From positions 1-32,422 of the IMG/VR virus record IMGVR_UViG_3300032311_000392: a DNA stretch of 32,422 bases; one strand, 5' to 3'. This document shows positions 1-24,100 of this stretch, in pieces. The position numbers were made by a program, and so were the translations under genes. The first letter of the stretch is position 1; each line of letters begins with the position of its first letter. The notes beneath the pieces are model-generated. The model was not told where the DNA came from. It saw nothing but the letters and a program-made list of their open reading frames with translations, and ran no database searches. Origin of the DNA: a virus.

Positions 1-615
1 ATTAGTTAGATCGCCAATACCAGTTGCATAAGTTCCGGAAGCGAACTGTGCTACAAAGTCATCAGTATCTTCGTTTGCTACTGGGACACGGAATGTCTTA
101 GCATCAACCTGAATACGATCGAACATTGGAGCAATTACTAGCTGCTGTTCCATTTCTTCATAGATGTTAGTTGAGAAGTTCTGTAGGAACTGGTCAACTG
201 ATGTGATTGCCTTAATCTGATTACCAATGTTGGTATCAAATGGGTCACGACGTCCCATAGCCTTAGCTAGTAGGTAGGCATTTGCCATCTGCTTAGCAGA
301 GAAGCGTGAGGTATTACGAGCCTGCTCCTGATAAACATTCTTGCTCTCAGAGATAGCCTTGATTTCATTTCTATACTTTGAAATCTGTGACTTTAGTTCT
401 TCTAGCTCTTCGCGAGTCTGGCGAGATACTTCACCCTTACGGTCAACTTCGTCAGCCTCTTTCATTACAGTCTCGCCAGCCTTCTGGACTAGCTTCTCTG
501 CTCTATTCTCGCCAACTACTACTGAGACTTCAGACTTCTCTACCACTGTTTCAGTTGTAGTAGCCTTCTTTTGAGTCTCTAGTACAATTGGTTCACCAAT
601 ATTTTCGGTTGCCAT
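1..615 (-). CDS. Major capsid protein, HK97-type, internal start (3' end outside window)
   Basis: This is the C-terminal part of the fused frame read from an internal ATG at 615, preceded by AAGGAG nine bases upstream, so the capsid protein can probably also be made alone. The 205 visible residues begin with about 100 charged, helical, coiled-coil-like residues resembling the HK97 delta (scaffold) domain. After that comes a segment with NIYEEMEQQLVIAPMF and a TFRVPVANED strand, as expected for the start of the HK97 fold (N-arm and spine helix region). Delta domains are removed by the prohead protease after assembly, so a cleavage near residues 100-106 is plausible but not shown. The remainder of the protein is outside the window. 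Whether the separate or the fused product dominates cannot be told from sequence. Confidence 0.82.
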   Translation of the reverse strand, partial: MATENIGEPIVLETQKKATTTETVVEKSEVSVVVGENRAEKLVQKAGETVMKEADEVDRKGEVSRQTREELEELKSQISKYRNEIKAISESKNVYQEQARNTSRFSAKQMANAYLLAKAMGRRDPFDTNIGNQIKAITSVDQFLQNFSTNIYEEMEQQLVIAPMFDRIQVDAKTFRVPVANEDTDDFVAQFASGTYATGIGDLTN

Positions 616-2178
616 TGTTTCTTTCTCCTTTATAGTCTTAGTAGTTTTATGACCGTTTACGAGTAAAGCTAGATTCTTGGAAGTCTCTTCGCTATTTCCG
701 CAGTCAATACTCTTAAGCTTTTCAATATTTTTAAGCATTATATTTGCTATATGGTAACTTGTGTCATTCCATTCTGATGATGGTGTAGTTTTTAGATTAA
801 GTGTTTTATTAAGCTTTTCTTGTAAAAGTTCACTATTTTTAACAGTATCTTTATCTTTTACTGCATAAAGCTCTTGTTCTGATATATTTACTAGCGATTT
901 AAAACGCTCTTTAATATTTAAACGCTCAGAGTCAGTTAAACTCTTAAAATCAGTAGATATTATTTCAAGGTCATACTGTGACCCAATATCCCAAAAATTC
1001 ACTACTGATAAATTTTCAGCAGAAATTGTAACTGTATTATCTAATGATTTACCGTTTAAGTCAACTTCTAAAAATTGAAAAATAGGGTTTTGGGCAGTAG
1101 CAATTTTTGTTACTTGATATCTTTTGCCTTCGTGTTTGGCAAAAGTACCGTTTTTAACATAAGATGTTTCCGTACTTAATAAGTTTATAAAAGGAATTAA
1201 ATCGTATGGGTTAGAAGATACAGTACTTTCTTCTTCTAATTTATCCTCTAAATCCTTTGAAACATCAAGTTCCTTATTAATATCATCTTCTGTAACTTCT
1301 CTTGTTTTTTTCATTAGGCTCTCCTCTGTCTCAGAATATAATGTAACTGAAGAATAATTTGGATTTCTACTAGCAGCTACCTCACTTGGTGACATTGGAC
1401 GCTCGTCATCATCCTCAACTTCCTGACATCCAGTAGATGCAGAAGGTTGTACTAGGAATACTACTTCATGGGTATGACCCTGAGACTGTTCCATTTTATA
1501 ATTAGTTATTTTATGGTAATGGTCTTGACCGTGTGAAGAATATGTAGTAACTCCGTTACCGCTATCATCCATTTCTAAAGTATGATAGTGATTATTTACA
1601 TTATTACTAATACCTATATAGATACGAGCCATAGCCTTAGTCTCATCAGAGAGACTAGCATCTTTTAAACTCTTTTTAAAATTATCATAATCAGCATTAG
1701 ACTCAAAACTTTTTCTAACACTGAATAAACTCTCTTGGTTACAAGGTACGCTTACTACACTAATCTCATGTAGTTCAACATCTGTAATCATAGTAGTATC
1801 ACTAGACCTATCATAGCGACCATCTTTAACTTTAAAACCTACAGAAAAGCTCTTTAAAGCACCATCTTCAATAAGAGTTTGAACTCCGTGTAGCTTCTCA
1901 GCTGCATCACTTACATAAGCTTCAACAAAGATACCTTTACGGTCTACAGAAATTTTTTCAACACGTCCAATAGGCTTACTATGGTCATGCTGATATAATA
2001 AAACAGGGTTTTTACGGTAGTAATCTACACCTTTAGCCCAAGCTTGAGCAGTAATGATATCACCAGCACGATCTTTATCTGTGGTATTAGCATATCCTGC
2101 AATTTTTAAGCCTTTTTTCTTACCTTTTGCAGTTTTTTCAACTGTTAAAGGGCTATATACATGAAATATTTTATCCAT
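1..2178 (-). CDS. Prohead protease fused in frame to major capsid protein (partial)
   Basis: The frame is open without a stop from the ATG at 2178 to the window edge (726 codons); I checked every triplet. Residues 1-155 look like an HK97 gp4-type S78 prohead protease: a YQHDHS segment (His64/His66), LKSFSVGF (Ser112) and an ELHEISVVSVP segment (Glu135/Glu138) match the expected His, Ser and acidic positions. Residues 195-240 form a His-rich stretch with HYH, HYH and HTH motifs. Residues 289-521 are a charged linker of unknown fold, and residue 522 onward is the capsid protein. The protease normally trims scaffold and capsid delta domains inside the prohead. The start overlaps the portal stop by 8 nt and has GGGGA upstream. 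Separate protease and capsid genes are the usual arrangement; a fusion is uncommon. Internal starts at 1314 and 615 suggest nested products. The missing C-terminus lies beyond the left edge. Confidence 0.9.
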   Translation of the reverse strand, partial: MDKIFHVYSPLTVEKTAKGKKKGLKIAGYANTTDKDRAGDIITAQAWAKGVDYYRKNPVLLYQHDHSKPIGRVEKISVDRKGIFVEAYVSDAAEKLHGVQTLIEDGALKSFSVGFKVKDGRYDRSSDTTMITDVELHEISVVSVPCNQESLFSVRKSFESNADYDNFKKSLKDASLSDETKAMARIYIGISNNVNNHYHTLEMDDSGNGVTTYSSHGQDHYHKITNYKMEQSQGHTHEVVFLVQPSASTGCQEVEDDDERPMSPSEVAASRNPNYSSVTLYSETEESLMKKTREVTEDDINKELDVSKDLEDKLEEESTVSSNPYDLIPFINLLSTETSYVKNGTFAKHEGKRYQVTKIATAQNPIFQFLEVDLNGKSLDNTVTISAENLSVVNFWDIGSQYDLEIISTDFKSLTDSERLNIKERFKSLVNISEQELYAVKDKDTVKNSELLQEKLNKTLNLKTTPSSEWNDTSYHIANIMLKNIEKLKSIDCGNSEETSKNLALLVNGHKTTKTIKEKETMATENIGEPIVLETQKKATTTETVVEKSEVSVVVGENRAEKLVQKAGETVMKEADEVDRKGEVSRQTREELEELKSQISKYRNEIKAISESKNVYQEQARNTSRFSAKQMANAYLLAKAMGRRDPFDTNIGNQIKAITSVDQFLQNFSTNIYEEMEQQLVIAPMFDRIQVDAKTFRVPVANEDTDDFVAQFASGTYATGIGDLTN
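625..630 (-). promoter_or_regulatory. Internal ribosome binding site for capsid start
   Basis: AAGGAG on the minus strand, nine bases before the ATG at 615, inside the fused protease-capsid frame. It is as good as the sites of ordinary genes in this window and is the main evidence for independent capsid translation. Confidence 0.75.
1321..1327 (-). promoter_or_regulatory. Internal ribosome binding site before Met289 of the fusion
   Basis: AGAGGAG on the minus strand, with GGAG six bases before an in-frame ATG at 1314 (residue 289). Initiation here would give a product lacking the protease, made of the 233-residue linker plus the capsid protein. This resembles nested scaffold starts such as lambda Nu3 within C. 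Confidence 0.5.
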
Positions 2179-3430
2179 TTTGTGTATCCCCTGGTGCGCT
2201 AGTTTGGTCTCCCTCAGAGGGTCTTCCTCCTTGTGAGGAATCTACAGCACTACCTGTTATATTTTGTGGTATTCTAATATCATTATGACCTTCTAAGGGA
2301 CCATATCTTAAACCTTCTCTAGCTTCATTAGGTGTTAAGATTCCAGTATTAACTAAGGTACTATAGTATAGAGCTTGAACTTTTTCATCTGCACGAAGAG
2401 AGGAAACTGCTGTTCTATCTGGTCTAATAATCATATCTGGACCAAAGAAATGAGCAAAAGAACTACAAAACTGCTCTAATATAGGCATAATAGTATGATT
2501 ATAGAATAGAACTTGATTGGCATGGATATTAGCATTATTACCACTCTTTAAGAGAACATAAGGAACTCCTAGAGCTTTAGCTATATCTTGTTGAACACGC
2601 TCAACAGATGCTTCAAAATCTAATTCAGAAAACTTTACTTGACCAAAAGGACTTATTTGTAATCCACCGTCTAAAATAGCAGGAGACCTAGCACCACCAA
2701 AAATAGTAGAATAGTTCTGTCTCCACTGCTCAAGGACACGTTCTTTAACTTTAGGACTCAACACAGAATCAGTTTGTAGCACGATTCCTGGAACACCATT
2801 ATTTTTAAAGAATTGACGTTGAAAGTTAATTAAATAGTAGTAAAGCTCTATTAAACGCTTAATAGATTTAAGTCTAGGAGCACCTCTATAAATACTATCC
2901 TCATTATCAGCTTTAATATGAATTATTTCTTCTGGTTCAAACTTTAGATGAGTATCTTGGCGAGTAGTTTGTCTATTATAACTATAGACAGAGGATTGTT
3001 GTATATTTCTAAGTAAGAAGTTATAGTGATTGATAAATGTTTTTCTATCAGGAATTACTTCCATATCATTAGCTGGTATTACATAGATATTAGTTTTGTC
3101 ATAATAAAAGAAAGCATTACCATCTATTAAATAGTCTAAAAAAGCACGCCTAAAAAGTTTTACTCTATCTTCAAAAGGATTTGGTGCTCTATTTAAAAGC
3201 TTATCTACTTTTTTAACAGCGCCACCACCCTCAACAATAATAGGAATCTCAATTAACCCATTAATAATAAGTTCTATTGACCTATTAACAACTTCGACTT
3301 CTCTATAAGCTTGCTTATAATCAGCAACAACTTCAGGACTTACATAAGGCTGCGCGGCAGCTAGTGATGGCTGAGCTGGATTAAGTTTTTCTGAAATCCA
3401 TTGTCTCCAAGCTGGAACTTCGTTAGCCAT
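2171..3430 (-). CDS. Portal protein, HK97 family
   Basis: A 419-aa protein matching the HK97-type portal family in length and pattern. The helical region with EVEVVNRSIELIINGL, the FLDYLIDGNAFFYY segment, EEIIHIKADN, the GVPGIVLQTDSVLS segment and the C-terminal LVNTGILTPNEAREGL are typical of these portals. The portal is the dodecameric ring at one head vertex through which DNA enters and leaves, and it binds the terminase and the head-tail connector. The ATG at 3430 follows AGGGAGAAAA and overlaps the HNH gene by 8 nt; its stop overlaps the protease-capsid start by 8 nt, so translation is probably coupled. The C-terminus (about residues 395-419) is a polar Gly/Ser/Asp-rich tail, likely disordered. 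Confidence 0.93.
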   Translation of the reverse strand: MANEVPAWRQWISEKLNPAQPSLAAAQPYVSPEVVADYKQAYREVEVVNRSIELIINGLIEIPIIVEGGGAVKKVDKLLNRAPNPFEDRVKLFRRAFLDYLIDGNAFFYYDKTNIYVIPANDMEVIPDRKTFINHYNFLLRNIQQSSVYSYNRQTTRQDTHLKFEPEEIIHIKADNEDSIYRGAPRLKSIKRLIELYYYLINFQRQFFKNNGVPGIVLQTDSVLSPKVKERVLEQWRQNYSTIFGGARSPAILDGGLQISPFGQVKFSELDFEASVERVQQDIAKALGVPYVLLKSGNNANIHANQVLFYNHTIMPILEQFCSSFAHFFGPDMIIRPDRTAVSSLRADEKVQALYYSTLVNTGILTPNEAREGLRYGPLEGHNDIRIPQNITGSAVDSSQGGRPSEGDQTSAPGDTQNG

Positions 3431-3797
3431 TTTTCTCCCTTTGCAATTCTAACCATTTTATAATCTTTGATGCCATATTATTAGTATATCTTTGACCATA
3501 GATGTTATGGAGTCTTTCGTGATGAACCTTACAAAGAGTATAAAGATTTTCGTTACTTAGCTTACTAAATTCATCGTTATAAAATTTAACTCTTATATCT
3601 TTTATTGCATCTACAGAATCAACTTCACTAATGCCATTAGCTGAACACCAAACTTCAAATAACTGTGAAATTGAATACATGTGATGAAGCTCTAGCTTGT
3701 CTTTACATTTACAAACATAACATTCATCTCGTGGTTTATAATCTTTTTTAATATAATCCCTAATATATTTAATAGGAATTCTTCTCAAATTACTCAT
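3423..3797 (-). CDS. HNH endonuclease
   Basis: A 124-aa protein with a complete HNH core. A CxxC pair (Cys26, Cys29) precedes the LELHH element (His38/His39), followed by ENLYTLCKVHHERLH (Asn84, Cys89, His92/His93, His97), giving likely zinc ligands and the metal-binding catalytic His-Asn-His set. HNH enzymes next to terminase and portal genes in HK97-like phages can help the terminase cut packaged DNA; free-standing HNH genes can also be homing endonucleases. Both remain possible here. The gene lies between the large terminase and the portal, has an 81-bp gap before it, lacks a Shine-Dalgarno sequence, and carries its own possible leaderless promoter. This partly autonomous look would suit a mobile gene, whereas the 8-nt overlap with the portal suits a settled packaging gene. 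Confidence 0.9.
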   Translation of the reverse strand: MSNLRRIPIKYIRDYIKKDYKPRDECYVCKCKDKLELHHMYSISQLFEVWCSANGISEVDSVDAIKDIRVKFYNDEFSKLSNENLYTLCKVHHERLHNIYGQRYTNNMASKIIKWLELQREKNG

Positions 3798-3863: not shown

Positions 3864-3879
3864 AACTAAAATTTTAGTT
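3864..3879. repeat. Perfect 16-bp A+T-rich palindrome between terL and HNH gene
   Basis: AACTAAAATTTTAGTT is self-complementary over 16 bp and sits directly at the stop codon of the large terminase, followed on the minus strand by CCCC and TTTT. It could be a weak terminator-like hairpin or a protein-binding site. The 81-bp gap 3798-3878 otherwise holds only the possible HNH promoter. Confidence 0.5.
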
Positions 3880-5147
3880 TAAGCATATATAGAAGCTGAT
3901 TTTTTAACATAAGTATATATAGCATAACGTACAGCGTCAGAAGCGTGTGAGCTATCATCATGAATAGTAGTTGGGTTATCAGTTTTAGGATTCCATTTAT
4001 AAGTTGATAGAGCCATAAAAGTTTGAAAACCAGCATCTCTATCAAAGATAAGTCTATTATGGTCTACTAAAGAACATATATAGTTAATACCATCATTTAC
4101 AGATTTAATTGCATTTTCACAATATATATCATAGTCACCAGCAAAGTCAGCACGTAGTTGCTGAGCGGCAGAATCAATATATATCATATCAATTTCCCAC
4201 TTCTCTTCTAGTTCTTTAATATGTGTTGCAAGTTCGGATGTTGTTATTTCTTCGGAAATATACTCATCAACAACATAAAAGTTAGTACCATCGGTAGCTA
4301 TAACAACAAAAGCATTTTTATCTCTATAACCAACGTCAAAACCAGCTATAATTTCATAACGATTTAGATTAGATTTAATATAACTTAAGTCCTTAACATG
4401 CTTATCTTGTATAAGATTATAGACTTGTAGCTCCGTAGTAGTCCAATCACACTCATATTCTTGAGCAAAGAGTTTATGAGAAGTAGACTTACGAGCTTCT
4501 TCAATATCTTTCATGTTAAGTAGTGGGTTAGCTCTCCAAGTATACAGCGCACTACCCCATTCTTCATAATCCTCAGTCTGCCCACGTAAGTAGTACTCAT
4601 GTAAATAGTTTGCTTTACCGCGAGGAGTAGAAATAAAGAGGGCACGAGAATTTGGATATGTAGAAAGGGCAGGACGTAAATCACGAGTGAAGTATTCATC
4701 ATCAGGGATAATTGCAGCTTCGTCTACAATTATAAGATGAGCAGCGCGTCCTACGAGAGAATCTCTATTATTGGCAGAAAGAAGCCTAAAAGTAGAACCA
4801 TTAATAAGTTTAACAATTTTATCTTTTTGATTGAAACGGTCTACTTCGAGCTGTAGATTACGAATCATATCGGTTACATAGTCCCAAATGATTGAAGATA
4901 GAGTGAAGTTAGGAGCTACAACCATAACCTGTGTTCCAGGTTCAAGAAGCTTTGCTAGTGCAAGAATACCGGCGGCAAGGGACTTGCCTGTACGGCGGGC
5001 AGATATATGAGTCCAGAAACGATAGTTTTCTAGACCATCTACCATTCCCCATTGACTTTCATTAAAGGTTATGCCTTTACTTTGCCCAACAGCAATTCTC
5101 TCAAGCAACTTTTCAACAGGAATTTTAAAAAATTTTTCTTCTTTCAT
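3879..5147 (-). CDS. terL: Terminase large subunit
   Basis: A 422-aa packaging motor and nuclease. The N-terminal ATPase has Walker A SARRTGKS (residues 49-56), Walker B LIIVDEAA (138-145, Asp142 and Glu143) and the coupling motif FISTPRG (171-177). The C-terminal RNase H-like nuclease has GFDVGYRD (Asp271), IDSAAQQ (Asp325) and HDDSSHASDAVRY (Asp397/Asp398 and Asp404). The length is normal for the family and all key residues are present, so it should be active. It docks on the portal, pumps DNA into the prohead and cuts the concatemer. The start at 5147 has AAGGT upstream and is separated from the stop of the holin-like gene by one base. A small terminase candidate lies about 26 kb away at 30801-31244 instead of next door. 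Confidence 0.96.
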   Translation of the reverse strand: MKEEKFFKIPVEKLLERIAVGQSKGITFNESQWGMVDGLENYRFWTHISARRTGKSLAAGILALAKLLEPGTQVMVVAPNFTLSSIIWDYVTDMIRNLQLEVDRFNQKDKIVKLINGSTFRLLSANNRDSLVGRAAHLIIVDEAAIIPDDEYFTRDLRPALSTYPNSRALFISTPRGKANYLHEYYLRGQTEDYEEWGSALYTWRANPLLNMKDIEEARKSTSHKLFAQEYECDWTTTELQVYNLIQDKHVKDLSYIKSNLNRYEIIAGFDVGYRDKNAFVVIATDGTNFYVVDEYISEEITTSELATHIKELEEKWEIDMIYIDSAAQQLRADFAGDYDIYCENAIKSVNDGINYICSLVDHNRLIFDRDAGFQTFMALSTYKWNPKTDNPTTIHDDSSHASDAVRYAIYTYVKKSASIYA

Positions 5148-7470: not shown

Positions 7471-10400
7471 TTAGAAAAATAAGAAAAAGTTAGAGTTAGA
7501 TGATGAATAAGAAGGTATAGTACCATCCATTAGATACGCCCCCGAAAAAGTTCCTTTAGAATTTGTTCCAATTTTCCAATATAAATCTGGAACATAGAAT
7601 GATATATCAGTAGCAGTTATATAGTCAACAGACGTAGTATCAGAAGTTCCTGTATAAATTAAAGAAGCAGGACCAGTCGGAGCGCTACCAGAAATAGTTA
7701 AAACCTTACCTACTGTACCGGTCGCAGTGAACTGCGATACTGTTTGGGTAGTAGTTCCTAATATTATTGAGGAGGCTCCTGTGGAGCCATAGCTGTTGGT
7801 AATATTTTTGAAGATGTTATTTCCAGTAATAGTTAAATTTCCAAGACCTCCTCCTCCTTGGTCGATAGTAATACCGCTATAGTTAACTCCCCCTCCTGTA
7901 AAAGTTTTGGGGGATGCACTAGTTAGTTTAATAGTTCCAGTGCCAGTTACGGTAAGATTTGTTGGAGTAAAAACAGTCCACGCCGCAGTAAAAGAAAGAG
8001 TCCAAAGCCCAGACCCCATCGCCAATGTTCGAACGTTTGAGTTATTAGTATCTACACCGCCAATTGTAACATTTTTATCATTAGCATTAAAAGTTCCGTA
8101 GATTAAGCTTATGAAATTACCCACTATCGCATCAGCGAGAGTAACAGAGCCTCCAGGTGCGGTGATATTTATAGTTCCCGTAAAAGGACCGGCTCCTGCG
8201 CTTCTAATGGTCTGCGATCCGCGACCTGAAAAATATATATTACCTGTGCCGCTAATAATAACTCCGGAACCATTAATCCAATCTCCATAGATTTGAGGTG
8301 TTGTTGCTCCTATATCTAGCGTCATTGTATTGGTTGTGCGGCCTGACATGTTGATGGTGCCAATATTCCAAGCCCAATCCATTATAATAGTTGCACCTGA
8401 ATTTAAGTTTGCTGACTCAATCCAAGCAGTATCTTGAGCTAAAGGAAAATTATTTAAGTCAGCTGTACCACCACTTGTAGTGGTCCATGCAGTATCCCCC
8501 CAATATCCGCCAGCAGCAAGATTCCAGTATTTATTTGTCCCTGCGTTAAATGTGATGCCACTATTTCCTTTGCAATCGCCAAAGCGTGTCCCACTAATAG
8601 GAGCGGCAGCGCCCACTATGGCGATATCCCTGAAGTCAATATCAGCTGAGCCAGCGGCGAATGCACCGACTGTCATTGTGCGTGTTGTTCCAATGGTGTC
8701 AGACCTCAGAAAATTGCGATAAGTTGCACCGTCACCCGCTGAAAGTGTTAGAGTTCCTGTAATAGTTTGATTGGCGGAAAAGGTTATAAAGGAAATTCCA
8801 AAGCCACCTGCACCAACTTTCCCAGCAATGGAAAGATTAGCAAAGGTATTTGCGCCTCCTATGTTAATTATACCGTTATAAATTGAGGTGAGAGATACAT
8901 TGTTATATGAAAGGCCTCCCAATTGATAGTCGCTACTAGATGATGAGAGAAGAAGGGTTGATGTCCCAGCGTTAAAAGTCAGGTTCGTTGTAGAAGAAAA
9001 ATTACTATTACAATCTACTGTGCTGGAGCCAAAATTAACAACACGAGTGGCTGTCCCTACAAAGGTAAAGAGCGCGGCGTAAAATGTATAATTTCCAGTA
9101 TCAAATGTTCCGGCGGTAATTCTCCAGAAAAAACCAATTTCCGTAGACCCCAAGGTCCACCCGCTGCCAACTCCGTTGACTTCAATGGTGTTGCCTGTTG
9201 GACAATATGCGCCATTGGGGGTGTAGACTTTCCCAGTTGAAGAGCCAGAAAGAGTTATCGTGCCATTCCATGTATATAATTGTGTCATTCCAGTTGTAGG
9301 GAAGGTTAGATTTCCATGAACCGCCAGCGGGGCAGTTCCTGCAAAAGAAACGTTTCCAGAATTAGGACCAGTAACGGTCAAAGACCCGCAACGAAGTTGC
9401 GTAGCGGTAAGGGTAACTGTGTAGGCGGTGGCGTTGGACGCAGAGTTAAAAATCACAGCATCAGCAGACGTAGGCACAGACGCGCCGCCAGAACCGCCAG
9501 ACGTTGCAGACCAGTTCGTGGTAGTCGTGGCATCCCAAGTACCATTTCCACCACGCCAATAGCGAGTAACAGGGGTAGGAGCGGCAGTCAATATAGCGTT
9601 AGTTCCGCCAGTGCTATTTACCCCGGCATAGAACTCCCCTGGAGATGTAGCGCTGATTGTGATAGTTCCAAGCGCAAGATAATCTACCCCTGAGACGCGA
9701 GCGCCGGCAATAGTTAGCAAGGCGGTGCCCGTGACAGTGACTACGTTGCCAGCTGTGCCTGTGACTGTCCATGCTCCAAAGGTTTGTGTTGTAGTACCCA
9801 GCGCAATAGTATGAGCAACTGTTTTAGTCGAAGCAATTTCGCTAAAATTATTATTACCAGAGATAGTTAGAGTAGAAGAACTACCTCCTGCACCACCAAT
9901 AGTGAGCTTATTATAAGAAAGACCAGCCCCGGCAAAGGTACGAGAGACAGCAGAGTTATCAGTTAAGATTATATTTGCTGTACCCATATATAAAGTTAAA
10001 CCTCCAGCTGGAGCGAAAAAAATACTTCCAGTACCTGTGAGAGTCCAGGTTCCTGAACCCATATATAAAGTAGCAGTTCCAGTACTAAACCCTGAAACTG
10101 TAACATTATTACTGCCAACGATAAAAGTACCAGAAGATAGTACTAATGTACTAGAAGAAGTAAAGGAGCCAGAAAGTTGAACTGTTCCTGTCACAGGATT
10201 AAAATTAATAGGGAAATTAAAAGTTACCCCATTACTAGTAATAGTTTGTGTGCTTGCAGCACCAAAATTAAGAGTACCTGTAGTAGTACTTGTGCTAACT
10301 CCTGTACCGAATAACCAGTCTCCGTGAACATAAGGAAGGTTAGTACTTATAGATAAAGTCATAGCAGTAGTACGAGTAGAAGCATTAAAAGTACCTATAT

Positions 10401-12696
10401 TCCAAGCTTTATCAATAGTAATAAGACCAGTCACGCTACCTGTATTATTAAATCTTGCTGTATCTTGGGCTAGAGGAAAATTGTTAATGTTTGGTGATTC
10501 GAGAGTTACACCGTTATCATTAGCTAAATTAGTACACCAACCAATAGCAGACCAGTTTTGAGCTCCGGCTAAGTTCCAGTATACCGTTTTTGGGGATGGA
10601 AAAGTAATACCACTATTATTACCACAATTACCAGCACGAGTAGGGGCTGTTCCAGCAGCTGTACCTGCGATTGCAATATATTTGAAGTCACAATCCTGTG
10701 CTGATAGAGTGCCAACAGTTAAGATACGCTGAACTGCTCCAGTACTAATAGAGTTTGTTTGTACAGAGATGCGTCGTACAGCAGTAGCTCCAGCACATGT
10801 GAAGGTACCTGTTATAGTTTGGTTAGCCGCAAAAGTAAGTAGTGTAAGACCTACTGCTGCAGGAGGTGTAACTGATAAGTTAGCAAAGGTATTTGCTCCA
10901 GTTATATTATAAGTAGTCCCTGCGGTTGATGTAATATTCACGTTATTAAAAGTTTTACCTCCACCTACAAAAGCACTAGTAGTAGAAGTTATATTAATAG
11001 TAGAGGAACCTGCATTAAATGATAGGTTTGGATTTCCAAAGCTAACTGCGGTTGACCCTAATAGAGAAAGAGTACTCGAACCAAGGTTAATGGCACATGG
11101 GTAAGCAGTACTAGTTTGAATACGGGCAGCACTTACTGCTTGGCCATTAGTATTAAAGGTACCATGGTCGACAGTAATAATTGAGCTACCTATATTTAAA
11201 GCATCTGCAAGTTGAACAACGCCTCCAATACTTGAAATAGTTATAGCACTAGCAAAAGTTTTTCCTGCTGAAGTAATAGTTTGATTATTACGCCCTGAAA
11301 AAGTAATAATAGCAGAACCTGATAGTGTAGTAAGAGAGCCATTTTTCCAATCACCATATATAGTAACTGCAGCAGCAGTTGAAGCAGTCATAGAGGTTGT
11401 ACGAGAGGACATATCGACCGTAGGGAGCCATCCATAAACAGAATTAAATGTAATTACAGAAAGTGAGCCTCCTACACCACTACTATTATCAAATTTTGCA
11501 ATATCTTGAGGAAGAGGGAATGCAGCATAAGTAGCAGCACCTCCAGAAGTTAGAGACCAGCCAAGAGAGTTCCAAGCACCGGTACTTAGAGAGCTACCCC
11601 AATATACAGTCTTCTGTGCATCGAAAGTAATACCTTTACAACCACCCAAGTTTCCTATTCTAGTTCCGCTAATTGGAGCGGCAGTTCCGTTTACATATAC
11701 ATTCTTAAAGTCTATATTAGTTAAGTTTGTTGTACCATTACAAGTAACAATTCCCGCTACTAATGAAGTCGATCCATAATATAAAAATTGAACACGAGAC
11801 ATTGCAAGATACGTAGGGTCTGTTGTAGTATAAAACTGTCCATTAATTGTTAAAGGTGATGTATTAAATGTAATAGACCTATAAATAGTATTATTACTAG
11901 ATGTTAGTATTCTAAGGTCATTAAAGGTGAGTAGATTTAACAAGGATGCATTTGAAGTACCGCCGTAAAGATATACATTATAAAAAGTAGTATTTATAGT
12001 CGAGCTTACCCCAGTTATACTTCCAGTATAAATAGTAGAGGTATTTGGGGTAAAGGTAAAATTTGTAGTTCCATTGAAAATTATATTATCTGTATAATGA
12101 GTTGTGCTGTTTAAAGTTAAAGATTTAACAAGTGCTCCGCTCACTGATATACTAGCGCAAAATAAATAACCGCTACTAATAGTTACCGCACCTGCGGTTA
12201 TTGTTATAGCAGGACTTCCATAGAAATAAGCACCAAATAGTGACCAAGCACCTCCTACGCCATTAAAGTTTATGAGTGTATAGTCAGTAGCAATAGTATC
12301 TGGGTGATATATGTAGTTACCAGTTGTTGTTGCAGATAAATTTACATTACTAGGAGCAATAGCCCAGATCATAGACTCGGATATTATATAATTGCCGTAG
12401 ACAGTTAGGGCAGTACCTCCAGTAAGTGTGCCAGCATACCAAGATGGACTTGTCGGATATCCAGTAGAAGCATTAATTGCTCCAGAGCCTGCAAAAGAAA
12501 GATTAAAACAAGATAGAGACCCTGACATTGTGCAGGTTCCTGTACCAGAGTTAGCATCAAAGTAAACATTATCAGCCGCAGTAGGCGCAGAAAACCCGCC
12601 AGCACCCCCACTGGAGTTAGACCAGTTTGCAGTGTTAGTTGTATCCCAAGTACCTGTACCACCGTTGACTGCGCCTGTCCAATATCTATCGGCCAT
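7471..12696 (-). CDS. Giant five-module fibre/adhesin-like structural protein
   Basis: A 1741-aa protein rich in Gly, Ser, Thr and Asn with regular beta-strand-like patterns and no signal peptide, cysteine framework or enzyme motif. It is built from five modules of about 340 residues, starting near residues 1, 362, 702, 1042 and 1385, each opening with a YW...W motif. Modules 1 and 4 begin with RYW..G..GTWD and NWS; modules 2, 3 and 5 begin with a K.YW or N.YW form followed by FPL.QD. Before modules 2, 3 and 5 runs a linker like ISGTR.G..KG..GITF. Such proteins are typically long beta-helical tail appendages or virion surface proteins. It starts by a TAATG overlap with the 101-aa gene and ends in FFLFF. 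Modules 4 and 5 are visibly richer in G+C, suggesting separate origin. The exact role is unknown. Confidence 0.8.
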   Translation of the reverse strand: MADRYWTGAVNGGTGTWDTTNTANWSNSSGGAGGFSAPTAADNVYFDANSGTGTCTMSGSLSCFNLSFAGSGAINASTGYPTSPSWYAGTLTGGTALTVYGNYIISESMIWAIAPSNVNLSATTTGNYIYHPDTIATDYTLINFNGVGGAWSLFGAYFYGSPAITITAGAVTISSGYLFCASISVSGALVKSLTLNSTTHYTDNIIFNGTTNFTFTPNTSTIYTGSITGVSSTINTTFYNVYLYGGTSNASLLNLLTFNDLRILTSSNNTIYRSITFNTSPLTINGQFYTTTDPTYLAMSRVQFLYYGSTSLVAGIVTCNGTTNLTNIDFKNVYVNGTAAPISGTRIGNLGGCKGITFDAQKTVYWGSSLSTGAWNSLGWSLTSGGAATYAAFPLPQDIAKFDNSSGVGGSLSVITFNSVYGWLPTVDMSSRTTSMTASTAAAVTIYGDWKNGSLTTLSGSAIITFSGRNNQTITSAGKTFASAITISSIGGVVQLADALNIGSSIITVDHGTFNTNGQAVSAARIQTSTAYPCAINLGSSTLSLLGSTAVSFGNPNLSFNAGSSTINITSTTSAFVGGGKTFNNVNITSTAGTTYNITGANTFANLSVTPPAAVGLTLLTFAANQTITGTFTCAGATAVRRISVQTNSISTGAVQRILTVGTLSAQDCDFKYIAIAGTAAGTAPTRAGNCGNNSGITFPSPKTVYWNLAGAQNWSAIGWCTNLANDNGVTLESPNINNFPLAQDTARFNNTGSVTGLITIDKAWNIGTFNASTRTTAMTLSISTNLPYVHGDWLFGTGVSTSTTTGTLNFGAASTQTITSNGVTFNFPINFNPVTGTVQLSGSFTSSSTLVLSSGTFIVGSNNVTVSGFSTGTATLYMGSGTWTLTGTGSIFFAPAGGLTLYMGTANIILTDNSAVSRTFAGAGLSYNKLTIGGAGGSSSTLTISGNNNFSEIASTKTVAHTIALGTTTQTFGAWTVTGTAGNVVTVTGTALLTIAGARVSGVDYLALGTITISATSPGEFYAGVNSTGGTNAILTAAPTPVTRYWRGGNGTWDATTTTNWSATSGGSGGASVPTSADAVIFNSASNATAYTVTLTATQLRCGSLTVTGPNSGNVSFAGTAPLAVHGNLTFPTTGMTQLYTWNGTITLSGSSTGKVYTPNGAYCPTGNTIEVNGVGSGWTLGSTEIGFFWRITAGTFDTGNYTFYAALFTFVGTATRVVNFGSSTVDCNSNFSSTTNLTFNAGTSTLLLSSSSSDYQLGGLSYNNVSLTSIYNGIINIGGANTFANLSIAGKVGAGGFGISFITFSANQTITGTLTLSAGDGATYRNFLRSDTIGTTRTMTVGAFAAGSADIDFRDIAIVGAAAPISGTRFGDCKGNSGITFNAGTNKYWNLAAGGYWGDTAWTTTSGGTADLNNFPLAQDTAWIESANLNSGATIIMDWAWNIGTINMSGRTTNTMTLDIGATTPQIYGDWINGSGVIISGTGNIYFSGRGSQTIRSAGAGPFTGTINITAPGGSVTLADAIVGNFISLIYGTFNANDKNVTIGGVDTNNSNVRTLAMGSGLWTLSFTAAWTVFTPTNLTVTGTGTIKLTSASPKTFTGGGVNYSGITIDQGGGGLGNLTITGNNIFKNITNSYGSTGASSIILGTTTQTVSQFTATGTVGKVLTISGSAPTGPASLIYTGTSDTTSVDYITATDISFYVPDLYWKIGTNSKGTFSGAYLMDGTIPSYSSSNSNFFLFF

Positions 12697-15943: not shown

Positions 15944-16657
15944 TTAATATTGAAGTATTATTAAGCCGCCTAAAAAAGTTCCATTACCAGATCTTGCGGT
16001 TGCTAAAGAGCCGTTTCTTGGCCCAGAAGCACCAGAGCCATATCCTGTACCTCCTAATCCAATTGAACCTGTACCATCATAACCACCGCTGCCACCGTCA
16101 GCAGACCTACCACCCTTACCATACCCTAAAGGTGTATCTCCACCATTACCTACAGCATTATTATTTGAGGCATTAGTACCTGAAGGAGCACCTGAAAAAC
16201 CGGGGATTGCAAAGGCATTTAAAGTAGTTCCATTGGTTATACCAGTAAAGGAACCACCAGTAGTCGCAGCAGCTCCTCCACCTGCTGAGTATGTAACACC
16301 GTTATAAACTACAGAAGACAAATTTCCTGTTCCTCCTACAGCAGCAATAGCTCCTACTGTATATGTAATAGTATATAGTCCGGAAACAACTGATAATATA
16401 ATAGTACCTACAGCTCCGGCTCCGGCACCTGCTCCTACTAAACCAACTGTAGCAGCAGTAGTAGAAGAACCGCCTCCCCCACCAATAATAGTAAGCTTAA
16501 ATTTTGCTCCATGAACCTGTAGAGAAGGAGGTAATGTATATACTACAGCTGTTCCGGTGGTAAATATAATCATATTTTGAAAACCAGTATTACCGATAAT
16601 AGCCTTATCTACTGATAAAGAACCATAAACTCTAGTTTTATCTAATAATTTTGCCAT
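15944..16657 (-). CDS. Glycine-rich tail-tip adhesin, paralogue 3
   Basis: A 237-aa protein. The N-terminal part (DKTRVYGSLSVD, GFQNMIIFTTGT, GAKFKLTIIGGGG) is a beta region shared by all three tandem paralogues. The C-terminal two thirds are Gly/Ser/Ala-rich with GGDTPLGYGKGG and a terminal IILQY. Such Gly-rich domains fit phage adhesins with polyglycine-II-like cores (the T-even gp38 type is the known example), where surface loops contact the receptor. AAAGGTG precedes the ATG. It lies in tandem behind a large LamG fibre whose C-terminus carries the same kind of Gly-rich domain, so all may attach alternately or together at fibre tips. Receptor binding is inferred. Confidence 0.8.
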   Translation of the reverse strand: MAKLLDKTRVYGSLSVDKAIIGNTGFQNMIIFTTGTAVVYTLPPSLQVHGAKFKLTIIGGGGGSSTTAATVGLVGAGAGAGAVGTIILSVVSGLYTITYTVGAIAAVGGTGNLSSVVYNGVTYSAGGGAAATTGGSFTGITNGTTLNAFAIPGFSGAPSGTNASNNNAVGNGGDTPLGYGKGGRSADGGSGGYDGTGSIGLGGTGYGSGASGPRNGSLATARSGNGTFLGGLIILQY

Positions 16658-16667
16658 TTTTTCACCT

Positions 16668-17381
16668 TTAAAATTCTAAGAGTATTAAACCAGCAGTACC
16701 AGCTGCTCCTGCAAATCCTGTAGTAGAGGGTGAGTAGCCACCCCCACCTCCAGCACCATATCCTTCTCCTGCAAAACCTGCACCAGTGGTTCCACCATGC
16801 CCACCACTTCCATAACCTAGAGGAGTACTGCCTCCATACCCATAGTATAATCTAGAAGTACGATCAGCTGTCCCACTAGAACCTCCAGGAGTTCCAACTA
16901 AATTTAGAGTACCGCCAGTTGCTGTACCACCAGCAGCTACGCTAATTGTACTATAAATAGTACCGCCGGAGCCACCACCAGCTGTATAAGTGTTACTATT
17001 ATATACTATAGAGGATGAGCCTCCAGCAGTTCCAACAGTATTGATTGCTCCTGCAGCTCCTAGTGCTCCTACTGTATATGTAAATCCATAGGCTCCGTCA
17101 ACTACAGATAAGTAAGCAAGTATAACACCTCCAGAACCACCTCCTCCGCCACAAGCTCCGGTAACAGCTGCTGTAGAACCCGCTCCACCACCTCCACCAC
17201 CAACAATAGTTACTCTAAATTTAGCTCCTATTACTCTAAGCTCATTAGGAAATTGATATTGTAAGTTTGTTCCAGTTGTAAATACTACTAGATTTTGAAA
17301 ACCGGCTCCAGCGCCAGCAATAATAGCCGCATCTACTGTCAATGACCCATAAATTCTTGTTCCACTATTTAATTTTGCCAT
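16668..17381 (-). CDS. Glycine-rich tail-tip adhesin, paralogue 2
   Basis: A 237-aa paralogue of its two neighbours. It shares NSGTRIYGSLTVD, GFQNLVVFTTGT, GAKFRVTIVGGGGG, then a Gly-rich region with STPLGYGSGGHGG and a terminal LILLEF. The N-terminal third is well conserved between copies, whereas the Gly-rich loops differ, which is the pattern expected if the loops are under selection for receptor variety. AAAGGCG lies before the ATG at 17381. The spacing to both neighbours is only about ten bases, consistent with tandem duplication within one transcript. Confidence 0.8.
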   Translation of the reverse strand: MAKLNSGTRIYGSLTVDAAIIAGAGAGFQNLVVFTTGTNLQYQFPNELRVIGAKFRVTIVGGGGGGAGSTAAVTGACGGGGGSGGVILAYLSVVDGAYGFTYTVGALGAAGAINTVGTAGGSSSIVYNSNTYTAGGGSGGTIYSTISVAAGGTATGGTLNLVGTPGGSSGTADRTSRLYYGYGGSTPLGYGSGGHGGTTGAGFAGEGYGAGGGGGYSPSTTGFAGAAGTAGLILLEF

Positions 17382-17392
17382 TTTTTTCGCCT

Positions 17393-18103
17393 TTAATATT
17401 CTAAAATTATTACCCCTGGCTGACCTGCTGCCCCGTTTGAAGCAGCTGCTCGATAGGCTCCGGCCCCTCCACCAGACCCATAGTTTGTGCCTGATTGACC
17501 AACTCCTGAATTACTAGGTATACCACCCCCTGAGCCATAACCTAAAGGAGTATAACCACCTCTAATAATTTGAACGTTGTTAGTATTACAGACCGCCCAC
17601 TGATTTCCAGGATTACCTGTAATATTTAATACCCCATTTCCATTGCTAGCTGAACCACCAAAAGCTCCAGTAGCTGTAGTGGTGTAGGGACGTCCATAAT
17701 CACCACCGCCAGCAATATAAAGTATAGAGTTATAACTAACTAACGTATCTCCACCAGCTCCTGCAGAAATTTCTCCTGATGCTATTCCTGCAGTACCTCC
17801 AGCACCTATAGTATAAATAAACGAATAAAGACCTTCAACTACTGTTATTATAGCAATAACAAGTGCTCCAGAACTACCACTACCATTTATATATCCAGTA
17901 GCACTTGCAGCAGAACCACCGCCACCAGCTCCAATAATAGTTACTTTAAATTTTGCGCCGGGTATTTTAATAACGTCTGGTAAAGTATACGTCGCTAATG
18001 TTCCAGTTGTTAATACTACCATATTTTGAAATCCACAACCAGATGTTATAGAAGTATCAACTATTATTGTTCCGTTGACTTTTGTATCGTATAAATTAGC
18101 CAT
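17393..18103 (-). CDS. Glycine-rich tail-tip adhesin, paralogue 1
   Basis: A 236-aa paralogue with a diverged N-terminus (DTKVNGTIIVD), then GFQNMVVLTTGT, GAKFKVTIIGAGGGG, a Gly-rich region containing YTPLGYGSGGG, and a terminal VIILEY. It begins one base after the stop of the 2373-aa LamG fibre, with GGAG upstream, so it is probably translationally coupled to that fibre. The domain resembles the Gly-rich C-terminus of that fibre (WTCPAGVTSVSVVCVGGGG). A role as a fibre-tip adhesin is inferred from composition and position. Confidence 0.8.
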   Translation of the reverse strand: MANLYDTKVNGTIIVDTSITSGCGFQNMVVLTTGTLATYTLPDVIKIPGAKFKVTIIGAGGGGSAASATGYINGSGSSGALVIAIITVVEGLYSFIYTIGAGGTAGIASGEISAGAGGDTLVSYNSILYIAGGGDYGRPYTTTATGAFGGSASNGNGVLNITGNPGNQWAVCNTNNVQIIRGGYTPLGYGSGGGIPSNSGVGQSGTNYGSGGGAGAYRAAASNGAAGQPGVIILEY

Positions 18104-18104
18104 A

Positions 18105-21100
18105 TTACATATCTCCAGTATTAGTAGATGGGAAGGATCTTCCTAGTCCCCAAATAATTCTTACAGCTCCAGGACCTCCATTACCGCCAAAATATGATGA
18201 ACCATCAGAGCCACCCCCTCCGCCTCCATAGGAACCTGCTATAGTTGCTACAGATAGGCTTGCACCTCCATTTGGACCAGAGGTTCCATTACTGCCTGCA
18301 CCTCCACCACCTCCTGGAACTCTAGTGTTGATAACTGTATTTTGGGTAGTTCCTCCCGCACCATTTATCCCAGCTCCAAGTAGTCCAACTCCACCTCCAT
18401 TACCGCCAGTACCATTAGCAGAAGTTCCGCCACCTCCAGAACCACCACCAGCACCGCCACCAGACCCTATAAGACCGTCAGTTGCTGGATTTGGAGTTTT
18501 TCCAATACCACCAACTCCACCGGAGCCGTAGTAACCACCAGCTCCACCGCCACCACCGCCTGAATTTGCAGCGGCACCTGCTCCACCAGCGCCTCCAGCA
18601 CCACCCGTACCGGCAATTACTAAACCACCAGTACCAGCAGCAGTAAAGCCCCCAACATTGGTACCACCTCCGCCACTTCCTCCACCAGCTTGTACTGTTG
18701 AAACGCTATTAAAATAACTATTACCTCCCGTACTCCCAGTTGCACCATTACCAGTTCCTTGAGTACCTCCAACACCTACAACAACTGGATATACGTTACC
18801 AGGAACAACAGTATAATTGTTTATATAAGCAAGTCCGCCACCGCCGCCGCCGCCTCCACCATTTCCACCACCTCCGCCGCCTCCACCAACGCATACGACA
18901 CTTACACTTGTTACTCCAGCTGGACATGTCCAGTTGAATGTTCCAGTACCTATATTAACCATACCAGTACCAGAAACTGTTGTTGGATAGGCAGCAACTG
19001 CTTGACCAGAATAGTTATCATTCACAATAATAGTTGATGATGTTGCAACAACTGGACCAGATATAGAACCTGTACGTAGTTGAATTATAACTGTTTCAAC
19101 ACTCTCAGAAGATGCATCATTAGCTATAGTTTTTGATAGAGTTCCTACACCGCTTGTTATAGTTATAGACCCAGAATTTATTGAATCACTGAAATCTGCT
19201 CCAACTGTTGTTCCTGAGTTAGTCCAGTATAAAGTACCAGAACCAAATTGTGGACAGATAATAGAGAATGTAACTGTACTACCCTCATTTAGTGAGAGTC
19301 TATCAGGAATTATTGAGAATTTTATAGCGTATTCATCAATATAATTAAGAACCTTTAATTCTCCTGTTCTATATTGTTTCATTAAAGTTGTATTTGGTAC
19401 TATTGTTGGTGAAGTAGTTGAAGGTAGAAATAAGGCTAAGGGGGGGTCAGTAGCGTCTACAGCTATTGTACCGCTATTTGCAAGAGAGACAGAGCCAGAA
19501 GTATCAGTTGTTATAGATGAAGTAGTAAATGCTAATAATTTAGTTTGTCCAGCAGTAATTGCATTAATATGACCGTTAGTAGATTGAGTTGTTTGTAATG
19601 TAGAAGTAGGTAAAATAAAGGGTCCAGTATAAACTCCAGTACCAACCACTACACGAAGATTAGAAATATATCCTGGGAAGAAGGCAGCAGCAAGTGATAG
19701 GTCAGCGCCAAATACAGGCCTAGCTGCAGTTGTTAAATAGCTATTAGAATCGGCATATGCGGCTCCAACTTGTACTCCGTCAACATACATTTTAGTAACA
19801 GAAGAAATTCTAACAATCGCAATATGATACCATCTATTTGTATTTAAAGCTGTACCTGTAATTCTAGCTGCGTTAGATACAAAATATATAGGTAAATTAG
19901 CAGTACTTATATATAAGTTTGGATAAACAGAGTTGGTTGACCCAGAAGGTCTTCCATCATATATAGAACGGTTAGCAGCAGAAGTAGCTGTAATATAGAT
20001 AAAACATTCAATAGTAAAGTCTGAAGTACCAATAGCAGTTGGAGTAGTACTTACATTAACATAATTATTTGTTCCATTAAATTTTGCACTATAATATGCA
20101 GTAGATGAGGGAGAAATAAAAGGTGACCTATAAGAAGAAGTTGGGTACCCAGCAGCTAGAGTACCATTTTTCTGAAGTATATGTCTATTATTACTTATAT
20201 CTTCAAACCCGTCTTTTGAAGTATTTAATAAAAAGGCAGTTTCAGCATTTATTGCAGAAATATTTGTTTGAGCGGGTTGAACAGGTAATAATCCATTTGT
20301 TGGAGGAGTAAAGTTTCCACCAGAAAAAGTATCGCTATAAACTGAAACACCTTTAACAATACGAAGATTAGATATATAACCCTGAAAATAACCATCTGCT
20401 GCGACTAAAGGATTATACCCTATTCTACAAGTCATAGCATGAGCAGTATTAGCCCACCCACCATGGTCATATGTACTAACTATTTTACATACTAAAGTCC
20501 CATTATAATATAGGTTTGTTGAAGTTCCGACTCTTACTAATGCAAGATGAGACCAGGTATTTAAGGGGAGTGTTTGTGCTGATGCAGTAGTGTTATAACC
20601 AGCATATTGAGTTATATCTGTAGCACCTCCATTAGGTATTAAAATTCCATAACCTAAGCCTGCTACATTTTGTAATATTTTTATTTGATTTCCAGGTTGT
20701 TCTGAGAGATTAAGAGGGTTAAGTACCAGTATCGGTGTATTAGAAGTAGCTGCAGCTACTGTTGGGTACACCCATAGTTCAATAGTAAAATCATCAGTAC
20801 CCATAATAAAATCATCTACATAGGCATCTCCTGCAGAATTTAATCCTGAAACATTTAAATATGCAGAGCCATTAAAATAATAACTATATGTTCCAGCAAA
20901 AGGAATAATAGAATTATTAACCTGTACTGCACCTCCTGGATTAGTAAGAGCAAATCCTCTAGGAGAATTATCAATAATAGTAGCAGATTGAGCAGTCAAT
21001 AATTTTGTAGGATTCGTAGTTGTTATTTCTGTTAAAGCTGCTGTTGGAGGAGTAAATGCGCTTGTATAAAGTGCTTGTCCTTTAATAAATCTAATATTAC

Positions 21101-24100
21101 TTAAATAACCATTGAAATAGTCAGCGCCATTAGCGCCACCAGTATCCCATCTTCTACCAATATAAAAACCTATATCTGCAGAAGTGCCCGCACCAGCATA
21201 CGGCATAGAAGCAACAGCTACTGATGCTTTTAAAACACCATTAATAAATAATCTTGTTGTTAATCTATCAAAGGTAACTGCAAAATGATACCAAGTATTT
21301 ATTACACAAGGGTCTGGGCTTACTAGGCCATACCAAGTTGTACCATTATAGTATCCAAAAAATGGGTATGTTCCTGCTAATGTATTAGTATTTAAGTTTA
21401 TTCCACCCGTGTTGAATCCTGCTGCAAACGCGATATGATTTACAATTTTAGTAGTTATAACAGAAGAAGCATTAAAAGAATTATTATATACCCAAAATTC
21501 CAAAGTAAATGGTTGAGCCCCATTTGAGTGCCCATCAATGAAACTTGGTAAATATAAATATTGAGAACTAGAAGAATTAAATTGATAACTATATGTTCCA
21601 GCAAAAGGAATAATAGAGTTTGTAGTAGTTACCCCATTGACATTACTTATAGAGTTTGTATCTTTTTGAACAGTATCTTCAATAATTGAAGACTTAGCAG
21701 TTAATAATTTAGTTATACTTGGAGTTGATGTTATTAAAGGTAGTGCGCTAGTTGGAGTAGTAAATTTATTTTTAAGAATAGTCATAGATTTTGAATAAAC
21801 AGCTTTTGATTTTACAATACGGAGATTAGAGATAAATCCCTTCCATAGGAATGTGGTAGAAGTATATCCACCAATTGTTAAATATCTACTAGAATATATT
21901 GTATAATCATCCACAGAATATTGTAATATTCCATCAATAAATAGCTGAAGAATATTATTTTTCCTAGATAAGGCAATATGATACCACCTACCGACATAAG
22001 GAGTTCCAGCATAGTATTGAGTACTAGCTCCGTCAGAAAATACGTGTTGACTATTTTTTACGCCAAAAGACTGACCTAATATAACAGCACTTAACACGTT
22101 ATTAAAAGAGGCTTGAAAAGCCCCTCTTTCAGTAGCAATAGTAGCTTCTGAGTTATATAACCAAGCCTCTATAGTAAAATCTGTATTTTTACCAAATAGC
22201 GCAGAGTCATTTGTAACAGGAATAGATAAGTACTGAGATGTTCCGCTTAATAAAACACTGCCTCGATTATAATAATTAGAATTTAAGGTTACTTCATCTA
22301 TATTATTAGTAGTTTTAAATATTCCATCTCTATATTGTTTACTAACAGTAACATTAGTAGAATCATTAAAAGGTGAAAAAGCAGAAACTACTGGAACATC
22401 AGTAGCAGGATAAGTAAAATTAGCAGATAATAATCTGCCTGTAGTATCTTTTATACCAGTCTCTGATTGAGCTGTTAAAAGTGAGGTTCCTGGAACTATT
22501 TGTAATGGAGTAGTTGAAGGAGTAAAATTTGAATTATATAAGGTTCTACCCTTAATAGATCGGAAATTAGATATGTAACCCGTAAAAGCATATTTTATTC
22601 CATTCTGATACGAAGCACCAAGAGCTGCACCAGCTAGAGCATAATTTGTTACAGCAGTATTACCATTGATAGAGGCTTCAACACCATTAATAAATCCTCT
22701 AAATATCATCCCAGATCTTGTAACAGCGACATGGTACCAAGTATTATATTGAAAATACTGTGTTCCTAAAGCACCCCCAGAAGGCACAAATGAAACATCG
22801 GCTCCAGAACCAGGTCTTCCAAAACTAAACGTATCATTAGATAATGCTATATAAAACCCAGTAGCACCCGAAGCATTAGTATCTCCTATAAAGTACCCTT
22901 CATCGTTAGCAGCAGATAATAAATTTCTTCCATTATCATTTGTTAGGTAAATCCAAGCTTCGACAGTAAGATCAGCTGTACCAAAATCAAAAGCGTTTGC
23001 TGTACCAAGGGTAAATCTAGCAGGTAAGCCACTGAAATAAATACTTCCATTATTATATGAGTTTGTAGCATCATAAGAATTAAATGGAGTCTTTATTCTA
23101 TAATTTAAAGAGGGTGGTGTAGAGCCAGATTTTACTATTGCTAGATTATTAACACTCATATCATCATACGTCTGTAGCAATAATCCAACTTTAGAAGAGT
23201 CAGTAATAGCGGCTATATTTGTTGAAGAGGATTGAGTAATTTGTAATTGATTTGAAGGAGGTGTAAAAACATAAAAATTAGTTGGATATAGTGCTACATT
23301 TTTAACAACTCGAACATTAGAAATATACCCATTAAAATATGTTTGAGATGTGACAAATCCATTATTTAAATAACCTATGGAACAGCATATTTGTGTAGCA
23401 TTTAATGCTACTACCGTACCATAAGCTGATGTATATCCATTTAAGTAAAGAGTAGCTCTTCCATTAAGAACAGAAACTGCAACATGAGTCCATTGATTTA
23501 AAGGGACAACGGTAGTAGTAGTTAGCGTAACAAGAGTACCACCAGTAGAAGGTTTAACTTCAAATCTTATTTGACCATTTGCATATAACTCAAGATTTAA
23601 GTTACCAAAGTTAGTTACATTTAAATTAGATACTTGAAATAGTGAGCAATAGTTTGTTGAAGTAGGATATGCGGATGGTCTTATCCACATCTCTATTGTA
23701 TAAGTATTATAGTTATTTGATTCTAAAAATACAGAAGTTGGAAGTTCTAAGTATTGAGATGAGCCATTAAAAGATAAACTATATGTTCCAGTAAAAGGAA
23801 TTACAGAATTTGAAGATGTTATACCACCAATATTTTCTATATAAGAACTACTAGTAAGTGAATTATCTGTAGTTATAGAAGTCGACTGTAAACAGAGTAA
23901 TGCTGTAGATACACCAGTAATAGCATTAATGTTAGTACCAGATGATTGAGTAGTAGTCAATGGTGTTGTAGGTGAAGTAAATGCTCCAGTATATACTGCA
24001 ACACCTTTAACAACACGAAGATTAGAGATATAACCATTAAAATAAGTGGTAGGAGTTGTAGCATTAGCACCAATTTTTATATTTTCAAAACTATCATATA

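Follow-up and report, generated by a model that had tools for sequence, protein, structure and literature searches.

The window analysed here is a viral contig taken at its full length of 32,422 nucleotides (IMG/VR record IMGVR_UViG_3300032311_000392), and near its first position it carries, on the minus strand, genes in the order TerL, HNH, portal, protease and major capsid protein (MCP), an order of homologous proteins common to T5, the Demerecviridae and this virus (Table 1). The protease and the MCP are encoded together: as the first-pass annotation had read it, the frame that opens with the ATG at 2178 reaches position 1 without a stop under the standard code, where the contig end cuts it after 726 translated amino acids. 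The complete protein, 981 aa in length, is known from a second IMG/VR contig (L002) that is 99.6% identical over the part within the window and continues in the same frame to residue 981, with a Pfam match to Phage_capsid at residues 666–957 (E 2e-15).

Table 1. Features of the fused locus and of its neighbours, in window coordinates
Feature	Position	Strand	Basis
Terminase large subunit	3879..5147	-	profile match
HNH-type endonuclease-like gene, in place of the T5 nicking endonuclease	3423..3797	-	profile match
Portal protein (Phage_portal)	2171..3430	-	profile match
ATGGATAA overlap, protease start / portal stop	2171..2178	-	sequence, ORF ends
Fused ORF: prohead protease, linker, delta domain and MCP start	1..2178	-	726 aa in window
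Peptidase_S78 (HK97-type prohead protease) domain, residues 20–156	1711..2121	-	Pfam E 6e-20
Linker module 1, His-rich (HYHT...SHGQDHYH...GHTH), residues 180–245	1444..1641	-	alignment
Linker module 2, acidic, variable, predicted disordered, residues 246–320	1219..1443	-	alignment, AlphaFold2
Candidate second internal start: GAGGAG 1321–1326, ATG 1312–1314 (M289)	1312..1326	-	sequence
Linker module 3, predicted SH3-like small barrel, about residues 336–408	955..1173	-	AlphaFold2 pLDDT about 80–90
Linker module 4, predicted helical bundle, about residues 416–507	658..933	-	alignment, AlphaFold2
Strongest synonymous constraint, codons 486–535	574..723	-	codon alignment, 17 sequences
Internal Shine-Dalgarno AAGGAG	625..630	-	sequence; conserved in relatives
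Internal ATG (M522), start of nested MCP	613..615	-	sequence; aligned in relatives
Delta (scaffold-like) domain of MCP, about residues 522–640	259..615	-	boundary inferred
HK97-fold Phage_capsid domain start, residue 666 onward, cut by contig end	1..183	-	L002 match

One uninterrupted ORF therefore holds an S78 protease and an HK97-type capsid domain, and is a protease-MCP fusion. The protease scores above the TIGR01543 cut-off, as a member of the HK97-type (S78) family does, and the motif residues named in the first reading (His64, His66, Ser112 and Glu138) lie where they had been placed and are invariant across 29 diverse relatives, as is the capsid core. The proposed capsid start at residue 522 likewise proved to be in the same frame. 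At the other end of the ORF, the ATGGATAA overlap of the protease start with the portal stop suggests translational coupling at the level of the portal, and thus a low, coupled translation of the fusion. The cleavage site of the delta domain was not located, T5-like MCPs aligning too weakly in that region, and a full-length AlphaFold2 model built from 17 close sequences had a pLDDT of 35.

Conservation of the fused frame

Six scans of viral contigs, with the best 80 matches taken from each, gave 291 usable loci, many of them overlapping, which reduce to 124 distinct sequences. Among the matches listed, relatives extend down to about 44–60% identity, and the frame from protease to MCP is open in 122 of the 124. 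Linker length ranges from 232 to 403 aa across these relatives, whole modules having been lost or gained, always in frame, which excludes an indel and argues for selection for continuity. The concern that an indel in assembly or sequencing had removed a stop between the two genes could appeal to the window being a fragment and to nothing more; it is already refuted, because upwards of 120 distinct sequences, drawn from many metagenomes, carry the same frame, and we assign it a negligible probability. Two sequences have a lone stop, at codon 20 of the fused frame in one (L005) and, as a TGA at 7123, within the linker in the other (L080). These may be sequencing errors or broken copies; if they are real, readthrough may not strictly be needed. 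A scan of bacterial genomes with the MCP as query found no relative.

The general expectation of the first-pass annotation, that HK97-like phages keep the two genes apart, holds for the T5-like relatives and fails elsewhere. T5 and other Demerecviridae have proteases (pb11) about 40–51% identical and MCPs (pb8) about 25% identical to those of this virus, and in the T5-like phages checked the two genes are separate, with a stop between them and no long linker, whereas here they are fused. This virus thus has the gene order of the T5-like phages without their separate protease and MCP genes. In three T5-like outgroups a TAA stands 6–15 nt before the separate MCP ATG, in the same frame in two of the three, and Slocum, PR1 and Pylo, T5-like isolates with separate genes, branch outside the fused sequences in the protease tree and in the MCP tree alike (midpoint rooted, with long branches). 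Protease-capsid fusions have, on the other hand, been published for Arthrobacter clusters AM, AU and AN (PMC5513430; PMC11953736) and cluster AW (PMC12760985), and our search for other cases found them annotated in Rhodococcus RRH1, Rhodobacter RcMeacham, Pseudomonas PPpW-3, phiHAP-1/ECO1230-10/MQ-4-like phages and others. Those of the Arthrobacter, Rhodococcus, Rhodobacter and phiHAP-1-like phages resemble the present one in joining an N-terminal prohead protease to a C-terminal HK97-type capsid domain in one ORF. The known fusions that we checked are about 600–680 aa long with short linkers, in contrast to 850–1040 aa and a modular linker of 232–403 aa in this clade. Both the long modular linker in a protease-MCP fusion and the T5-like clade as its carrier are new.

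The embedded start signal at the capsid protein

M522 is aligned in all 29 representative proteins, and in 124 of 124 sequences an AAGGAG, AGGAGG or GAGGAG shortly precedes an ATG-GCN that is in frame and coincides with the MCP start, where synonymous codon shuffling predicts 11.3 of 124, a comparison that is not a formal p-value since the sequences are related. With its own start codon and initiation signal, the same frame and a shared C-terminus, the MCP is arranged as a nested co-terminal gene. Synonymous sites tell the same story: in a 17-sequence codon alignment, no 19-column window among the 981 is under stronger synonymous constraint than codons 505–524, with none of 2000 permutations as low, and the synonymous difference in 9-codon windows is 0.004–0.02 at the MCP start as against about 0.3–0.36 in the MCP and the protease. 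Codons 486–496, part of the constrained stretch at window 574–723 (codons 486–535), and codons 358–380 (window 1039–1107) are also constrained, and the Shine-Dalgarno sequence (SD) does not account for them.

For that reason part of the constraint could be due to an RNA element or a promoter. No Rfam family matched at the junction, and a structured junction RNA was rejected at fold z-scores of -0.2 to -1.2 in four 146-nt stretches, with -1.5 and -2.1 reached only in short 81-nt pieces. A possible stem near CUUAAGAGU/ACUACUAAG has an energy that is not significant. A sigma-70 promoter within the ORF was rejected as well, the count of sites being equal to that in shuffled sequences.

The first reading had offered a self-cleaving polyprotein or nested products as alternatives, and the nested products are now much better supported, by the start signal and by the constraint. 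A pure polyprotein, with the full-length fusion as its sole translation product and all MCP freed by proteolysis at a protease:MCP ratio of 1:1, would agree with a single conserved frame that embeds a protease followed by a flexible acidic linker. We nevertheless regard it as very unlikely: it leaves unexplained an internal SD and ATG in 124 sequences where 11 are expected, and the synonymous constraint at that very site, and it would require equal numbers of proteases and capsid subunits in one procapsid, when T5 prohead I contains 775 MCP copies, from which the protease removes the N-terminal scaffold domain (PMC5292684). The related suggestion that a polyprotein fixes the protease-to-capsid ratio does not stand, since, with a conserved internal start and the strongest synonymous constraint there, the sequence fixes no 1:1 ratio; two start sites would set it instead.

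If the internal start frees the MCP from the fusion, two functional genes may merely share a frame, with the MCP initiated at its internal ATG and the fusion a functionless consequence of there being no selection for a stop after the protease. The stops in L005 and L080 fit such an arrangement, as does the sufficiency of separate genes in T5-like relatives. Without selection, however, stops and frame changes in the linker should be common, and linkers of 232–403 codons instead stay open and in frame despite the turnover of modules, even in the variable codons before the SD, so that we consider the arrangement unlikely, though less so than the polyprotein.

In the known fusions checked the embedded start is not, as it is in this clade, near-perfect and universal. 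In about 6 of 11 known fusion ORFs, a raw count made with a loose motif, something resembling an SD precedes an in-frame start codon close to where the capsid part begins. Such a motif with an in-frame ATG was seen in annotated protease-capsid fusions of other, unrelated isolates, among them RcRhea, RcMeacham, phiHAP-1, CRP-406 and ECO1230-10. The strongly conserved embedded MCP start is new, and we found no description of an MCP nested inside a protease-MCP fusion in the literature, of which our coverage was partial. Phage lambda makes an in-frame nested product, Nu3, from an internal start inside its protease gene (gpC); Nu3 acts as a scaffold, gpC belongs to a different protease family, and the MCP (gpE) has a gene of its own. 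The scaffold-protease fusion of lambda is mentioned in PMC5513430. The herpesvirus UL26/UL26.5 pair is similar in design, an internal start in the protease ORF giving a co-terminal assembly protein (PMC12474303), but its nested product is a scaffold and not a capsid protein, and we claim no homology.

The linker and a candidate second start

The linker has no match in Pfam or PHROG, a PDB fold search with it gave no significant match, and a domain in it, here called X, was not found among isolated phages. Modelled alone from 29 sequences, it reached a pLDDT of 72 with AlphaFold2. The His-rich module 1, a possible metal site, is missing from two relatives (L092 and L096), and the helical bundle is absent from several. 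The predicted SH3-like barrel resembles the barrels of EF-P, eIF5A, CarD and MscS weakly, at Z 4–5 (VIA-align, about 5 or less). The single viral structure matched below 1e-3 was the separate prohead protease of the archaeal virus HSTV-2 (E 7e-4), and on the strength of that predicted likeness part of the linker may derive from an ancient protease tail. Our guess is that the linker acts as a flexible tether and that its barrel binds a metal or nucleic acid.

In the stretch that separates the His-rich module from the predicted SH3-like barrel, 78 of 123 sequences also have a strict SD with an in-frame ATG, against 15.7 expected; the same scan of the 123 sequences gave none in the protease and X regions. 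Synonymous constraint around M289 is not significant (p 0.10). We think it doubtful that the gene yields three co-terminal proteins (protease-linker-MCP, an SH3-like/helical-MCP form from M289, and the MCP) and that embedded MCP starts are general in phage protease-capsid fusions. Were there three starts, ribosome binding sites would set the proportions in which one gene supplies protease, shell and a minor internal component of the capsid.

Proposed co-terminal products and procapsid assembly

We consider it likely that one frame gives two co-terminal proteins, a fusion at low level and an abundant MCP, which assemble together, bring the protease inside the procapsid and are then cleaved. That both products are made, and in what ratio, and that they co-assemble and are cut, we infer from the arrangement of the gene. 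Initiation at the 2178 ATG, which is probably weak, would give a protease-linker-delta-MCP fusion of ~981 aa, and the embedded SD and ATG (613–630) would give an abundant MCP precursor of 460 aa. An excess of the nested product is indirectly suggested by its stronger SD and by GC3, which climbs from linker to MCP (0.22 to 0.35 in L002, and in the same direction in 17 of 17 sequences). The MCP part of the fusion would co-assemble with free MCP. As the delta domain would face the procapsid interior, the protease, fused to the N-terminal side of this scaffold domain, would be carried inside, in a proportion governed by the two start sites; it would then trim away the delta domains along with the disordered linker to which it is attached, so that ordinary MCP remains.

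How a few copies of the maturation protease enter each procapsid is a general question of assembly, to which a gene that links the protease covalently to only a small share of the shell subunits, and encodes their proportion in two ribosome binding sites, would be a direct and testable answer. In these uncultured bacterial viruses related to T5, which form a large group, a single gene can probably give rise to a small number of protease-shell fusions together with plentiful unfused shell protein. Where a 'major capsid' annotation covers such a fusion, an internal start should be searched for before virion proteins are assigned.

Elsewhere in the window, two very large ORFs (1741 aa at 7471–12696 and 1665 aa at 25226–30223) have no PHROG match. 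Between them, three adjoining genes of 236–237 aa (15944–18103), all matching phrog_863 (tail fibre assembly), are apparently tandem paralogues, and a 2378-aa protein (18105–25241) has up to 8 repeated matches to baseplate wedge and virion structural families and likely contains internal repeats.
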